This document shows positions 37,814-44,581 of a stretch of DNA of 64,000 nucleotides, one piece after another. Positions within the stretch are counted from its first letter, which is position 1; each line of letters begins with the position of its first letter. The DNA comes from Myxococcales bacterium (lineage in GTDB: Bacteria > Myxococcota_A > UBA9160 > UBA4427). The position numbers and the translations under genes are program-made. The DNA lies in assembly GCA_014240165.1 (NCBI GenBank), contig JAAZXM010000001.1, forward strand, positions 124,001 through 188,000. The letters run 5' to 3'. Below the pieces are notes generated by a model. That model was not told where the DNA came from and searched no databases. It worked only from the letters and a program-made list of their open reading frames with translations.

Positions 37814-39220
37814 TCAGGATTGGATGACGAGCTTGGACAAGCTGGTCTTGCGGAGATTCGTCTTTTGGATCGTGCGAACGAGCTCCGCGACCTTCTCCGT
37901 ATCCGTCTCGAAGGGGTTGTTGCAGATCACGCGGACGTTTAGAAGGTTCCCGAGCCGGATATTCGACCAGTCGAGGTCATATTGGATCGAGTGCTCGCGG
38001 GCCAACTTGATGAACTCTCCGCGCATTCGAGCTCTCGTGTCCTGGGGCGGTTGAACCTTCGCCTCATCGACCTCTTCATCGGTGAAGAGACGATCCACTG
38101 CCCCATTGCGCTCGAGCAGGTAATAGAGACTTCGCTGCCGCTGAATGTCGTGGTACTGGAGATCGAGCATGAAAACCTTCGGATCATTCCACGATGTGCC
38201 GCGGCTGTCGATATAAGACTCAATCAGGCGGCGTTTGATCAACCAGTCGATCTTACGGTCGAGCTTGTTGGGATCCGTATCGAGACAGTCCAGAACATAT
38301 TGCCACATATGAACGGCTTCTTTGTGCTCATCGCTCACGGGGTACTGTTCGATGTATTTCTGGGCCATTTCGCAGTATTCGCGCTGAATCTCGATAGGCG
38401 AGTACTCTCTGCCACTATCGAGTCTCAGCCGGCGCTTGCACGAAACATCGTACGTGATGTCCTTGATTGCCTTGACCGGGTTACGAAGCGTGAAGTCCTT
38501 GTTGATGTAGTTGTCTTCGATCATCTGGAGCACAACCGAGCAAGTACCCACCTTGATGAAGTTGGTGTACTCGCTCATATTCGAGTCGCCAACGATCACG
38601 TGGAGCCGGCGGTACTTCTCCCTATCTGCGTGGGGCTCATCTCGGGTATTGATGATCGAGCGATCATTCGTCGTCGTTCCTGAGATCTTTTGATAGATGT
38701 GCTGCGCCCTCTGGCTCACGCAATAGTGAACCCCGTCCTGGGTCTGGAAGACCTTGCCCGCACCGGTATAGATCTGGCGAGTTACGAGGAAGGGGATCAG
38801 CTGCTCGGCGAGGTAGTAGAAATCAACATCCCGATCGACAAGGTAATTCTCGTGGCACCCATAACTATTGCCGACGAAGTCCGTGTTGTTCTTGAAGATC
38901 GAGAGTTTGCCGGGAATTCGCTCTTCGCGAATCTTTTCTTCGGCGTACTGCTGAAGATCTTCGAGAATCCGCTCGCCCGCCTTGTCGTAAATAATCAATT
39001 GCTTGGGCGATGCACACTCGGGCGTCGCGTATTCGGGGTGGCAGCCGGTGTCCTGGTAGAATCGGGCGCCGTTCTCGAGAAAAACATTGAGGAAATGCTC
39101 GGTGGTAATCAGCTTCTCGAAGAGAAAGCGAATCGCTTTCTCCACCGGGAGGGTCTTACGCCCTTCGGGCGTAAAGATGATCCCGTATTCCGTTTCTACC
39201 CCGTAGATTCGCTTCTGCAT
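37814..39220 (-). CDS. pafA: Pup--protein ligase PafA
   Basis: Joins the C-terminal Glu of Pup to a lysine side chain of the target protein, using ATP. The 468-residue product starts at ATG 39220. The glutamine-synthetase-like core carries the metal/ATP ligands in RIYGVETEYGII (Glu9, Glu11) and the probable base Asp57 in NGARFYQDTGCHPEYATPE. Other conserved blocks are NSYGCHENYLVDRD, SIINTRDEPHADREKYRRLHVIVGDSNMSEYTN and MLDLQYHDI. It lacks the N-terminal insert of Dop. It is the last gene of the proteasome operon, 56 bases after prcA, instead of standing apart as in mycobacteria. Confidence 0.96.
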   Translation of the reverse strand: MQKRIYGVETEYGIIFTPEGRKTLPVEKAIRFLFEKLITTEHFLNVFLENGARFYQDTGCHPEYATPECASPKQLIIYDKAGERILEDLQQYAEEKIREERIPGKLSIFKNNTDFVGNSYGCHENYLVDRDVDFYYLAEQLIPFLVTRQIYTGAGKVFQTQDGVHYCVSQRAQHIYQKISGTTTNDRSIINTRDEPHADREKYRRLHVIVGDSNMSEYTNFIKVGTCSVVLQMIEDNYINKDFTLRNPVKAIKDITYDVSCKRRLRLDSGREYSPIEIQREYCEMAQKYIEQYPVSDEHKEAVHMWQYVLDCLDTDPNKLDRKIDWLIKRRLIESYIDSRGTSWNDPKVFMLDLQYHDIQRQRSLYYLLERNGAVDRLFTDEEVDEAKVQPPQDTRARMRGEFIKLAREHSIQYDLDWSNIRLGNLLNVRVICNNPFETDTEKVAELVRTIQKTNLRKTSLSKLVIQS

Positions 39221-39276
39221 TGCCTCAACCGCCCCTTCGGCCCATTGCTTTGCAGGGAAAGTCCCTGGACGAACCT

Positions 39277-39975
39277 TCAGGCCTCGAGCATTCTCTTCAC
39301 TTCTTCGACTGACATCCGAGTAAACTTGCGTCCCGGCTTGGCGCGATCCAAAACGCACACTTCCAGGGTACTTTCGTTCAGATTTGCACTGCTTTCGGAT
39401 CCAGTATCGAGGGCCTTTCGGCCCAATTTGACCGCTTCGCCGGCACCCAGGCCCTCTCGGTATTCGCTTGCCAACACCGTTTCGACCTCATCGACATTAC
39501 CACCTATGACGCAGTAGTCAGCGTGGTCGCTGATGAACCCGTCGAAAGTGACCCGATAGAGCGAATTTCGCCTGTGATCCTCCCACCGATCATCGCCGAC
39601 CTCGGCCACGATGATCTCGATCTCCAGGGGTTTCATCTCGCGGGTAAATACCTCTCCGATCGCCTGGGAGTAGGCATTCGCCAGGGCCTGCCCCGCCACG
39701 TCTTCTCGACTGTAGGAGTAGCCCTTTGTGTCGGCGAAGCGGACACCGATCTTCCTCAGCTGATCAAACTCGCTGAATTTTCCTACACCCGCGAAGGCAA
39801 TGCGATCGTATATCTCGCCGACTTTCGAAAGACTTGTCGCATTCTCTGCAACGAGCAAAACACCGCCGTCAAATTCAAGAGCGATGATCGATTTGCCGCG
39901 GCTGATGCCCTTGCGAGCGAACTCAGCCTTGTCGGCCATGATTTGTTCGGGAGAAGCGTAGAAGGGCATACTCAT
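39277..39975 (-). CDS. prcA: 20S proteasome alpha subunit
   Basis: A 232-residue outer-ring subunit of the 20S core that gates substrate entry. ATG 39975 overlaps the prcB stop as ATGA. The N-terminus SMPFYASPEQIMADKAEFARKGI has the same layout as actinobacterial PrcA (FPYFISPEQ type), giving the gate segment and helix H0. It lacks the N-terminal Thr, as expected of an alpha subunit. KFSEFDQLRKIGVRFADTKGYSYSREDV and FTREMKPLEIEIIVAEV are family blocks. The C-terminus (MSVEEVKRMLEA) is short. Coupled translation with prcB should help keep the subunits equal. Confidence 0.96.
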   Translation of the reverse strand: MSMPFYASPEQIMADKAEFARKGISRGKSIIALEFDGGVLLVAENATSLSKVGEIYDRIAFAGVGKFSEFDQLRKIGVRFADTKGYSYSREDVAGQALANAYSQAIGEVFTREMKPLEIEIIVAEVGDDRWEDHRRNSLYRVTFDGFISDHADYCVIGGNVDEVETVLASEYREGLGAGEAVKLGRKALDTGSESSANLNESTLEVCVLDRAKPGRKFTRMSVEEVKRMLEA

Positions 39976-40766
39976 TGAGACGATCCTCCGTTGCCCCTTC
40001 TCGAGACTGCATCCCGATAGGCGCTCTCGATATCCGCTTCTTCGCAATCTTGCACGCCGTCGCCGGAACAAGCCTTTACGACCGGAAAGATTCGGCGTTC
40101 GAGATCGACTCCACCCGTCGCACGGTCTTCGTCCGCGGCCGCTGTCAGCGCCGCCACTGCGAGACTGAGCGCACTGGCCTGGTCCAAGCCCGGCCTCCAG
40201 GCCTGCTTGATGGTTTCACGGGCGTAAAGCCCACCCGAACCCGTGGCATCGAATTCCGCTTCTTCGTAGCGGCCACCCGTGATATCGAATTTCCATAGTC
40301 GGCCACTTCGCCGACGCAGGTCATATCCGGCAAAAAGAGGAACAACTGCCAGTCCCTGCATCGCGGCCGGCAGATTTTGCCGAATCATCTGGGACAACTT
40401 GTTGGCCTTACCATCGAGTTCGAGGGCCTGACCTTCAATTTTCTCGTAGTGCTCGAGCTCAACCGAGAGAATTCGCGCCATCTCGATGGAGGGTCCTGCG
40501 GCTCCCGATATCGCCATACAGGAATGGCTATCGGTAGCGAAGACCTTGACCACGTCTCTCGAAGCGACCGAGTGCCCTGCTGTCGCGAGTCGATCACCCG
40601 CGACCAGCACCCCTCCTTCATAGAGCATCGCAAGCACTGTAGTGCCATGCGGAATCGAGTCCTTGGCGGCCTGATCCCAAGCCAAGACATTCGGTAGCAA
40701 CTGAGGCTGTTCGACTTGCAACAGCTCGAAGAAGCTTGACCCCTGATAGCTGCCTCTCCAACTCAC
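39972..40766 (-). CDS. prcB: 20S proteasome beta subunit with propeptide
   Basis: Proteolytic inner-ring subunit, 264 residues. A 41-residue propeptide (ending KDSIPHG) precedes the catalytic Thr42 in HGTTVLAM. With Thr42 as residue 1, Asp17 is Asp58 (AGDRLAT) and Lys33 is Lys74 (SRDVVKV), so the active site is complete. ELEHYEKIEG, AAMQGLAVVPLFAGYD, GSGGLYARETIK and RATGGVDLERRIFPVV are conserved PrcB blocks. The propeptide should be removed on assembly with PrcA. It lies 56 bases after pup. Confidence 0.97.
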   Translation of the reverse strand: MSWRGSYQGSSFFELLQVEQPQLLPNVLAWDQAAKDSIPHGTTVLAMLYEGGVLVAGDRLATAGHSVASRDVVKVFATDSHSCMAISGAAGPSIEMARILSVELEHYEKIEGQALELDGKANKLSQMIRQNLPAAMQGLAVVPLFAGYDLRRRSGRLWKFDITGGRYEEAEFDATGSGGLYARETIKQAWRPGLDQASALSLAVAALTAAADEDRATGGVDLERRIFPVVKACSGDGVQDCEEADIESAYRDAVSRRGNGGSSQ

Positions 40767-40822: not shown

Positions 40823-41098
40823 CTACTGGCCACCTCTTTGAACGTAGTTCTTGACGAACTCTTCTGCGTTCTCTTCGAGAACAGAGTCGATTTCCTCCAT
40901 CAAGGAGTCCATGTCCTCTTTGAGTTCTTCACCCTTCTTGGCCATTTTCTGGCCACCCTCTTCGGTGCTGTCGGAGGATTCTTCTCCTCCGCCCTTGGAC
41001 TTCTTCTTCTGTTCCCCGGATGCTGCCATCCAGATCGACGAAGAAATGTCAGCGGCGTCGCTCCGCCGCCTCTCCAAACTCTTGATAAATTTTGCCAT
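40823..41098 (-). CDS. pup: Prokaryotic ubiquitin-like protein Pup, N-terminally extended
   Basis: A 91-residue tag protein. The C-terminal 25 residues contain EEIDSVLEENAEEF and end VKNYVQRGGQ, nearly the same as actinobacterial Pup, which ends AYVQKGGQ in Mycobacterium. The final Gln must be deamidated by Dop before ligation. The middle is a Lys/Glu/Ser/Gly-rich disordered stretch. Most Pups have about 64 residues; here MAKFIKSLERRRSDAADIS and a few more residues precede an internal Met (residue 24) that would give a 68-residue Pup. GAGGT lies about ten bases before the first ATG, while the internal one has no evident ribosome binding site, so I favour the long form. Confidence 0.95.
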   Translation of the reverse strand: MAKFIKSLERRRSDAADISSSIWMAASGEQKKKSKGGGEESSDSTEEGGQKMAKKGEELKEDMDSLMEEIDSVLEENAEEFVKNYVQRGGQ

Positions 41099-41139
41099 TG
41101 GCTGATACCTCGATGGTCGTCGTAGCTCTGGTACTTGGG

Positions 41140-42624
41140 TTATGACTCCAAATTCTCAAGCAATTCCGTCGCGCTTTCGGATCGATTCAGTAGCTCCTCA
41201 ACATGTACTCGGCTGCCCTTCAAGGGCTCGCTCATCATGATTCGCCTGACGGGATCCTCTCCCTGTGCAAACGAGATCGAGTCCCAGTTAACGCCGAAGA
41301 CCTCGCCAGGATAGCGCCGAAGGCACTCTCCGCGGAAGAACGCGCGCGTATCGTCCGGCGGATTATGGGCCGCGGCATTGATCTCCTCATCGCTACAAAT
41401 ACGCTCAACCCTCCCTTGCCGCTCCAACATGTAGTACAAGCCTTTATCGGGTCGCGTATCGTGATACTGAAGGTCGAGCATCTGTACTCGAGAATCTTCC
41501 CAATCCGCGCCCTTGCGTTCGATAAAGCCCTCGAGAAGCTGCTTTTTGGCGACCCAGTCGATTTCCCGGGCCAAATCCATCGGGTCTTCCCGCAGACAAG
41601 TCATGACATGCTGCCATTTCTCGAGCACGTCCTGCGTGCATGGATCAATAGGGTTTCTGGCCGCGTAAGTGAGGGCCATTTCTAGGAATTCGCTCTGGAT
41701 CTGCACTGCTGTCATGCGTTTACCGTTATCGAGCAGAATCTCCTTCTTGAGATTCGAATCGTGCGAAACCTCCTTGATCGATCTCACCGGGTTGCTGAGA
41801 GCGAGATCCCGGTCAATGGCGCCGTCCTCGATCATCGACAGAATCAGCGCCGTAACACCATTGCGAAGATATATCGTGTACTCGCTCATATTCGAGTCAC
41901 CCACGATCATATGGAGACGTCGGTATTTTTCTCGATCGGCATGCGGCTCATCTCTCGTATTGATGATTGGCCGCTTTACCATCGTGTCCAGCGCGACTTC
42001 CGTTTCGAAGAAATCCGCTCGCTGACTGATCTGAAAATCGCAGGGATGGCTTCGGTTTTCGCTTCCCACCTTGCCAGCTCCGCAATAGATCTGGCGAGTC
42101 ACGAAGAACGGAAGAAGGTTCTCGACGATTCGCTTGAAGGAAGTCCGGCGATCCATGAGATAATTCTCATGACACCCGTAACTGTTCCCCTTCCGGTCGC
42201 TGTTGTTCTTATGAAGCAACATCAATGCGCCTTCGGGGAGGAGCAAATTCGCCTCACGGCGACTGACTTCCAGAATTCGCTCGCCAGCTTTTTCGTGAGC
42301 CACCAGGTCGCGCGCGTTGGTGACCTCTGGCGACGAGTACTCAGGGTGCGCGTGATCCACGTAATAGCGAGCGCCATTAATCAGGGTCTTGTTGCGGGCG
42401 ATGTTTTCCTGCTGATTCGGCGTGTACTTCTCACCGTCCACCTGAAACCCGCGCGCATCGGCGAGGGGGTTTTCCTGGTCGTAGTCCCATAGGATCCTCC
42501 CTTCAGGATCCTCCCTGTAGGCGTTGACCAGAAGCACGCAACTGGAAATGGGATCGAAGTCGGGATCGTTCTTGACGATAATCCCAAATTCGATCTCCGT
42601 TCCCATCACCGTGGGTATCGCCAT
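41140..42624 (-). CDS. dop: Pup deamidase/depupylase Dop
   Basis: Converts the C-terminal Gln of Pup to Glu and removes Pup from substrates. The 494-residue product is a paralogue of PafA. The metal-binding start is TVMGTEIEFGII (Glu10, Glu12) and the catalytic Asp is probably Asp90 in NGARYYVDHAHPEYSSPE. Between them lies an insert of about 30 residues (DYDQENPLADARGFQVDG) in the place of the Dop loop, absent from PafA; this and the YVDHAHPEYS wording separate Dop from PafA. NSYGCHENYLMDR and IINTRDEPHADREKYRRLHMIVGDSNMSEYT are shared. It sits 41 bases before pup. Confidence 0.95.
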   Translation of the reverse strand: MAIPTVMGTEIEFGIIVKNDPDFDPISSCVLLVNAYREDPEGRILWDYDQENPLADARGFQVDGEKYTPNQQENIARNKTLINGARYYVDHAHPEYSSPEVTNARDLVAHEKAGERILEVSRREANLLLPEGALMLLHKNNSDRKGNSYGCHENYLMDRRTSFKRIVENLLPFFVTRQIYCGAGKVGSENRSHPCDFQISQRADFFETEVALDTMVKRPIINTRDEPHADREKYRRLHMIVGDSNMSEYTIYLRNGVTALILSMIEDGAIDRDLALSNPVRSIKEVSHDSNLKKEILLDNGKRMTAVQIQSEFLEMALTYAARNPIDPCTQDVLEKWQHVMTCLREDPMDLAREIDWVAKKQLLEGFIERKGADWEDSRVQMLDLQYHDTRPDKGLYYMLERQGRVERICSDEEINAAAHNPPDDTRAFFRGECLRRYPGEVFGVNWDSISFAQGEDPVRRIMMSEPLKGSRVHVEELLNRSESATELLENLES

Positions 42625-42733: not shown

Positions 42734-44581
42734 CTACAGGTACTGACCTTGCCCAGAGGGCACAGTTTCGATTGTCTGCTCCTTGCGCTCCATTCCGGTA
42801 ATCAGCGTCCGCACATTGATAATTCGCTCACCCTTGCGGCCCGAAATCCGAGCCCAGTCATCGGGGTTGGTCGTATTCGGGAGATCCTCGTTCTCCTTGA
42901 ATTCCTGCCTGACCGACTCCTGCAAATCCTCAATCTTGATCCCTTGCTCCCCGTGGTCGATCAGGCGCTTGACCGCCTTCCGTTTCGCGCGCGCGACCAC
43001 GTTCTCGATCATGGCCCCGCTGGCGAAATCCTTGAAGTAGAAGATCTCTCGGTCTCCCTTCGCGTAGGTCACCTCAAGGAATTTATTCTCATCGCCCGTT
43101 GAGTACATGCCCTCGATGACATGGTCGACCATGACCTCGCAGAGTTTCTCGGCGTCGCCACCATGTTTCGCCAAACCACTCTCGTGGAAGGGCAGGTCGG
43201 ACCTCAAATATTTGCGAAAAATCTCCCGGGCAGCACCCGCATCCGGACGCGAAACCTTCACCTTCAGGTCGAGTCGGCCGGGGCGCAACACCGCGGGGTC
43301 GATCAAATCCTGGCGATTACTCGCCCCGATCACAATCACGTTCTCGAGCGATTCTACGCCGTCGATCTCCGAAAGGAACTGAGCGACAACAGTCGCTTCC
43401 ATGTCCGAGGAAACCCCCGAGCCCCGCATTCGGAAGAGCGAATCCATCTCGTCGAAAAAGACGACCACCGGCACATCCTGACTCGCCTTCTCGCGAGCCT
43501 TCATGAAGACCTCTCGAAGCTTGCTTTCCGTCTCGCCGACATACTTGTTCAGCAGCTCCGGCCCCTTGACGTTCAGGAAGTAGGCAGTGGTCGACTTCCC
43601 TGTTCGCTTCTCGATCTTCTTCGCCAATGCGTTGGCAACCGCCTTGGCAATCAGAGTCTTACCGCAGCCCGGAGGTCCGTAGAGCAGGATACCTTTCGGG
43701 GGCCGCAATTGATGATCCCTGAATACTTCCGGGTGGAGATAGGGAAGTTCAACCGAGTCCCGCAGGATCTCGATCTGGTCGCCCAGACCGCCAATATCAT
43801 CGTACGTGATATCCGGGATCTGCTCGAGCATCACCTCTTCCACGGTGGACTTGGGCATCTTCTCGAAGGCGTACTGCGTGCGCGAATCGATCATCAGGCG
43901 ATCGCCCACTTTCAACCTTTCGCTCCGCAGAGGCTCGGCCAGGGTCACCAGCCGCTCATCATCGGTATGACCAGTCACCAGAACCCGATTTTCGGACACG
44001 AAGTCGACCACGGTTGCGACCTCGCCGCGCTGGGTGTAACCAGCGGGCTCGACAACGTTGAAGGCTTCGTTGAGGACAACCATCTGTCCCTCTTCGAGTT
44101 GGACAGGGTCCAGGTTCGGGTGGAGATTCACTCGCATAGGACGACCGTCCACGAGGATCTCGACCGTATCGTCCTTGTTGGACCGCAAGAAGACGCCGTA
44201 ACCGTTGGGCGGCGCGCACAACTTATCGACCTCCTCCTTGAGGAGTTCGATCTGCTGCTTGGCTTCCTGGAGCATTCCGACGAGCTTTTCATTCTGTCGC
44301 TCGGCGTCTCGGTGCTGGATGCGAGCCTGGTCGTAACGGCGTCGCAGCGTCTCGAAATCACCCAGCATGCGATCGAGGCGAGTCCGAAACTCGTTTGAGT
44401 CGCTGCCGAAGAATCGAATTGCGTCCTGAAGCCCCTCGGCGTCTCCACCAACCGCGCTGCTGGGACGCCCCTCTGAAGCAGCTTCTTCCGCCTCCTGGGG
44501 ATCTGAAGGAGATATTCGGCCCATGACGTCACGCACGAACCCCTTGCGTCCCCCCGCGCCTCCCGAATCCTGTTCGCTCAT
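42734..44581 (-). CDS. mpa: Proteasome-associated AAA+ ATPase Mpa/ARC
   Basis: Hexameric unfoldase that recognises Pup and feeds tagged proteins into the 20S core; 615 residues. A disordered N-terminus of about 50 residues is followed by the Pup-binding coiled coil (about 65-122), tandem OB domains (about 125-245), then the AAA+ module with Walker A GPPGCGKT (302-309), pore loop KYVGE (346-350) and Walker B FFDEMD (375-380). The sensor and arginine region is NVIVIGASNRQDLIDPAVLRPGRLD. The C-terminus is GQYL, the Gln-Tyr-Leu motif that docks into the alpha ring. GGAGGAGGGG lies before the ATG. First gene of the operon. Confidence 0.97.
   Translation of the reverse strand: MSEQDSGGAGGRKGFVRDVMGRISPSDPQEAEEAASEGRPSSAVGGDAEGLQDAIRFFGSDSNEFRTRLDRMLGDFETLRRRYDQARIQHRDAERQNEKLVGMLQEAKQQIELLKEEVDKLCAPPNGYGVFLRSNKDDTVEILVDGRPMRVNLHPNLDPVQLEEGQMVVLNEAFNVVEPAGYTQRGEVATVVDFVSENRVLVTGHTDDERLVTLAEPLRSERLKVGDRLMIDSRTQYAFEKMPKSTVEEVMLEQIPDITYDDIGGLGDQIEILRDSVELPYLHPEVFRDHQLRPPKGILLYGPPGCGKTLIAKAVANALAKKIEKRTGKSTTAYFLNVKGPELLNKYVGETESKLREVFMKAREKASQDVPVVVFFDEMDSLFRMRGSGVSSDMEATVVAQFLSEIDGVESLENVIVIGASNRQDLIDPAVLRPGRLDLKVKVSRPDAGAAREIFRKYLRSDLPFHESGLAKHGGDAEKLCEVMVDHVIEGMYSTGDENKFLEVTYAKGDREIFYFKDFASGAMIENVVARAKRKAVKRLIDHGEQGIKIEDLQESVRQEFKENEDLPNTTNPDDWARISGRKGERIINVRTLITGMERKEQTIETVPSGQGQYL

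Follow-up and report, generated by a model that had tools for sequence, protein, structure and literature searches.

The best-described relative of the protein studied here is the 64-residue Pup of M. tuberculosis (PDB 7PX9, 3M9D, 7OXY). In the M. tuberculosis complex the Pup helix (approximately residues 21–51) lies antiparallel on the coiled coil of Mpa and the N-terminus threads first, with residues 1–15 visible in the pore and M1 about 35 Å above the 20S gate (PMC8755798). The pore loops of Mpa touch Pup by unspecific backbone interactions, and the threading stage before the 20S gate may be rate-limiting (PMC8755798). Pup lengths of 50–90 residues are given in the accessible part of Iyer et al. 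2008 (PMC2588565), which does not discuss an N-terminal extension. A literature search, in which few subscription papers were covered, returned nothing on N-terminal extensions of Pup or on pupylation in Myxococcota.

The 64,000-nucleotide stretch of a Myxococcota genome analysed here (the window) contains a complete cluster in the order mpa-dop-pup-prcB-prcA-pafA, all on the minus strand, which is also the order of these genes in Mycobacterium. The proteasomal ATPase gene mpa (42734–44581) encodes the pore loop KYVGE and the C-terminus GQYL. The depupylase/deamidase gene dop (41140–42624) belongs to the Pup_ligase family (PF03136, E 1.4e-172), and its product clusters with Dop in a joint tree with PafA. 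The 20S β gene prcB (39972–40766) matches PF00227 (E 9.1e-33), the 20S α gene prcA (39277–40071) was assigned by a profile match and by alignment with relatives, and the Pup ligase gene pafA (37814–39358) by a profile match and the PafA/Dop tree. To judge from alignments, the annotated starts of prcA and pafA may lie too far upstream, most relatives aligning from about residue 33 and residue 46, respectively.

The pup gene (40823–41098, minus strand) encodes 91 residues ending in RGGQ; translated from 41098 to 40823 the product reads MAKFIKSLERRRSDAADISSSIWMAASGEQ...EENAEEFVKNYVQRGGQ. The Pfam Pup model PF05639 (E 1.4e-19; 71.2 bits against a cut-off of 27) covers only residues 28–91 and the NCBIfam model pupylate_cterm (TIGR03687, E 3.1e-16; 59.1 bits against a cut-off of 41.45) residues 61–91. 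The M. tuberculosis Pup aligns across the same residues 28–91 (phmmer E 1.5e-11) and shares the C-terminal helix that binds Mpa, PafA and Dop as well as the GGQ tail, but it has no counterpart of residues 1–23 and no N-terminal hydrophobic-x-Ala-Ala. UBact, the tag reported from Gram-negative bacteria with related ligases, ends in R-(T/S/Q)-G-(E/Q); the window protein instead ends in RGGQ and scores far above the cut-offs of the Pup models. Only the Pup model matched in an NCBIfam search of the protein, with a model set that may or may not include UBact. With profile scores above the curated cut-offs, a tail of the GGQ/GGE kind and linkage to the genes of Dop, PafA, Mpa and the 20S subunits, the protein classifies as a genuine Pup, as the initial annotation of this DNA had it. 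Apart from the extension of Pup, the Pup-proteasome system of the window is canonical.

The 23-residue extension is encoded at 41030–41098 (minus strand). Its ATG (41098–41096) is the earliest start codon in frame, with the dop stop about 40 bases upstream, and is preceded at a spacing of 8 nt by the Shine-Dalgarno sequence GAGGT (41107–41111, minus strand), which the initial annotation had noticed without giving the strand. The codon of the internal Met24 (41027–41029, minus strand) falls near the canonical Pup start and is not conserved in the class. We read 79 Pups of this class; a Pup was present in 78 of 91 class genomes and in 39 of 43 of those of high quality. Among 141 genomes drawn from the phylum there were 29 Pup matches, 28 of them in this class and the 29th below the cut-off. 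The extension is present in 73 of these 79 Pups and spans both orders of the class, so that it is real and more widespread than first noted and is indeed kept in close relatives; these do not start uniformly at the internal Met (41029), the outcome that the annotation had named as contrary to an extension.

A Shine-Dalgarno match of at least 4 nt lies ahead of the upstream start in 65 of the 73 extended Pups, a count somewhat flattered by a start picker that prefers good Shine-Dalgarno sites; missing internal start codons are unaffected by this preference. Seventy extended Pups could be anchored automatically at an Ala-Ala pair, before which the stretch is 16–36 residues long (median 21). Among these 70, no ATG, GTG or TTG occurs near the canonical start in 41, and an ATG is found there in 23, just two of which have a Shine-Dalgarno match of at least 4 nt. 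Besides the full-length form, an additional product of internal initiation may exist in this Pup family.

In most class Pups the extension opens with Met and then Ala, Lys or Arg together with hydrophobic residues, continues into a middle portion variable in length and sequence, and ends in hydrophobic-hydrophobic-x-Ala-Ala-(Glu/Asp/Gly/Ser), as seen in the 70 anchored Pups. In the window Pup this junction element is I22-W23-M24-A25-A26 (41021–41035, minus strand). The first Ala is present in 69 of 70 Pups and the second in all 70, and position -3 is Ile, Val, Phe, Leu, Trp, Met or Tyr in 68 of 70. Hydrophobic residues occupy 124 of the 140 places at -3 and -2, whereas 20,000 shuffles within the extensions gave 38.5 on average and never more than 62. 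This excess, together with the occurrence in 73 of 79 Pups, shows that the extension is not a product of chance. Across the class, positions 2–6 are 29% hydrophobic and 29% Lys or Arg, and the 30 residues past the junction are 3% hydrophobic and free of aromatics. In within-genus pairs from 14 genera, pN/pS was 0.40 (95% interval 0.23–0.59) at the junction motif, 0.73 (0.54–1.01) at positions 2–5 and 0.06 in the Pup core. These values place constraint on the junction, where synonymous sites have varied freely, and at most weak constraint on the first residues; the spacer differs in length even inside genera. The extension thus has a start codon of its own and is conserved, with constraint at the level of the amino acids. 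It had been described at the outset as basic and partly helical. The charge holds (net +2 in the window Pup, class mean +1.6), and the helix is weakly supported: AlphaFold on the Pup alignment places one at residues 2–27 with low confidence across the extension (pLDDT about 59), and many relatives have Pro there. The strongest conservation lies neither in charge nor in helix but in the hydrophobic-x-Ala-Ala at the junction, which was absent from that description. A 29-position profile of the junction element found no other protein of the genome carrying it (best other match E 0.155), and a general leader common to other proteins of the genome was rejected on that score.

Six of the 79 class Pups have no extension, and four changes between presence and absence are needed on a Dop tree comprising 78 genomes. 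All six begin Met-Ala-(Glu/Asp/Gln) exactly at the Ala-Ala position of the extended Pups. Since the sister order and both outgroup phyla carry the extension, losses are a simpler reading within the class than gains. No residue of Mpa, Dop, PrcA, PrcB or PafA tracks the absence of the extension better than random labels, the best columns being equalled by 12–21 of 200 random label sets. The C-terminus is more changeable. The class has 46 GGE and 32 GGQ tails, which require at least 21 changes on the Dop tree of 78 genomes, and within the genus of the window the tail is GGQ in the window genome (G000) and G003 and GGE in G001 and G002. A GGQ end, which had been taken as a mark of type, is therefore not diagnostic of Pup type. 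Such switching between Gln and Glu at the C-terminus (window 40823–40834), even within a genus, suggests that the need for deamidation by Dop is easily gained or lost while Dop itself stays. One class genome (G053) has two pup genes, one ending in GGQ and one in GGE; the pair may reflect a mixture of strains in the assembly.

For comparison outside the class we read about 30 Pups from Methylomirabilota, 29 from Actinomycetota and 16 from viral contigs. No extended Pup was found among these sampled proteins, which are 58–72 residues long with one exception made by the start picker: at the actinobacterial locus L226 it took 97 residues, but a GTG start with a better Shine-Dalgarno site (GGAGG) gives 70. 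A search of phages and plasmids likewise found no extended Pup. Short Pup-like proteins of 58–65 residues occur on viral contigs, and the gut phage record MT835496.1 encodes a Pup-like C-terminus at 43633–43716. The Pup of Methylomirabilota (Rokubacteria, NC10) has the same core and YVQRGG(E/Q) tail as the window Pup but is 65–67 residues long, with a MAEQ or MPEQ start behind a strong Shine-Dalgarno site and no extension in the copies read. In the Methylomirabilota genomes checked, pup lies apart from dop, pafA, mpa and prcAB, with dop and pafA together elsewhere.

Two further groups, Entotheonellota/Tectomicrobia (five genomes) and a small phylum represented by G205 (four genomes), have main Pups of 79–98 residues that start mostly behind strong AAGGAG sites. 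These too carry extensions, of about 12–33 residues, in which a hydrophobic pair and small residues lead into a Q-rich linker; their spacers are unrelated to those of the class and the junction is often Thr-Cys-Ala or Thr-Ala-Ser. Examples of the junctions are IVTCAEGGQQ, VITASTDQQ, GISYATVDQQ and LLSAAAEQ. The hydrophobic pair fills 14 of 16 places against a null mean of 5.5, in a register picked by eye. An hhalign comparison of the class profile with that of these phyla arrived at this register too (E 3e-4, at a probability of no more than 40%), and the junction element is likely homologous across the phyla. With a front end of this type recurring in two further phyla, a functional role in the tag is probable, rather than an error in the choice of start codon. 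Genomes G205 and G329 also encode a second Pup, which ends in TQRGGE and has a long hydrophobic extension of its own at the N-terminus.

The initial annotation had called the window Pup actinobacterial-type. In a joint tree of PafA and Dop made by a quick method, in which each paralogue roots the other, Actinomycetota group with Methylomirabilota, and in the PafA part all long-Pup phyla fall together on the opposite side; the position of the root inside Dop is left unsettled by this tree. The same split between long-Pup and short-Pup lineages is found, unrooted, in a careful PafA tree (support 100/100) and in a quick Dop tree (100 SH-aLRT). PafA and Dop of the window do not group with those of Actinomycetota, and the protein has 91 residues, as against 59–72 in all but one of the actinobacterial Pups read. 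As a statement of phylogeny the label is wrong, given that both trees part the long-Pup from the short-Pup lineages. A published view, based on few genomes, has the Pup system transferred out of Actinobacteria (PMC7947786); the trees presented here are silent on direction.

The reading that we favour, with a probability of about 0.5, is that the extension is a lengthened N-terminal threader, which would be the first part of Pup to enter Mpa and could extend as far as the 20S gate; a change in the engagement of the tag by Mpa had been proposed in the initial annotation. When the start of the Mpa-binding helix is placed by its distance from the C-terminus, at the position matching residue 21 of the M. 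tuberculosis Pup, 47 residues precede it in the window Pup, about twice the 20 of M. tuberculosis; extended class Pups have 40–60 (median 45) and unextended ones 22–25. The helix of substrate-attached Pup would bind the coiled coil of Mpa in the usual way, and the extension would go into the pore ahead of the rest. Beside a linker rich in Gly, Asp, Glu and Lys, the hydrophobic element could offer a grip to the pore loops or to the Mpa-20S interface, and the length would allow the tip to arrive at the 20S gate ahead of any substrate unfolding, easing the hand-over. At approximately 3.3 Å per residue, the 20 or more extra residues would cover the approximately 35 Å involved, a geometry taken from another species; on the M. 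tuberculosis geometry about 33 residues should reach the gate, a distance that the long Pups should cover or exceed. The pore loops and GQYL tail of Mpa and the N-terminus of PrcA are canonical, and no pore-loop difference separates long-Pup from short-Pup lineages, KYVGE being present in all Mpa proteins read; with such pore loops and tails, nothing in Mpa speaks against a lengthened threader. The C-terminal tail of Mpa departs from GQYL in G051 (GRNYV) and G055 (GQYV). Against a threader, approximately four lineages without the extension retain the system, and no machinery residue tracks its absence above random labels. Moreover, because the pore loops bind the Pup backbone unspecifically, threading alone leaves the near-invariant Ala-Ala unexplained.

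That sequence-specific conservation of Ala-Ala and the hydrophobic pair, and the hydrophobic and basic first residues, would fit an element that binds a partner outside the pore, such as the 20S α ring, an adaptor, another protease or the membrane, and so controls the turnover or localisation of Pup. We keep this as a live rival, though a less likely one; no co-varying residue appears in the five neighbouring machinery genes and the profile search of the genome argues against a general docking system there. A further live rival, of similarly low probability, is a leader cut at hydrophobic-x-Ala-Ala, by which Pup would be kept inactive, or directed, until cleavage released a mature form with a canonical N-terminus (Ala-Glu/Asp...). 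A conserved junction beside a variable remainder is typical of leaders, and the mature end would match the starts of the six unextended Pups; however, Met-Ala is also merely a common bacterial start, the element does not fit signal peptidase I, its residue -3 being often Met, Arg or aromatic, and the extension has no membrane-spanning stretch. A longer 5' end tolerated with no role would agree with the variable spacer and the approximately four lineages that have no extension, but it is very improbable in view of the near-invariant Ala-Ala and hydrophobic pair and a motif pN/pS of 0.40, below 1. Initiation at the internal Met with an incidental upstream ATG, though this Met falls near the point expected from canonical Pups of 59–72 residues, is scarcely credible and was rejected for the class as a whole from the absent internal starts, the Shine-Dalgarno pattern and the amino-acid constraint.

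The lengthened threader, the favoured reading, is one form of a wider proposal that we put forward tentatively and at somewhat less than even odds: Pup would fall into two deep branches, a short one (Actinomycetota, Methylomirabilota) and a long one (this Myxococcota class, Entotheonellota and one further phylum), the long form having a sequence-specific N-terminal signal as a second functional part, be it a gate-priming threader, a docking element or a cleavable leader, that is present in no studied Pup. In these Gram-negative lineages, ligase and depupylase form a deep branch of their own. In M. tuberculosis the hand-over of a substrate between Mpa and the 20S gate may be the rate-limiting step (PMC8755798), and a natural tag with a doubled threader and a conserved element would allow a direct test of it, with the unextended relatives as controls.
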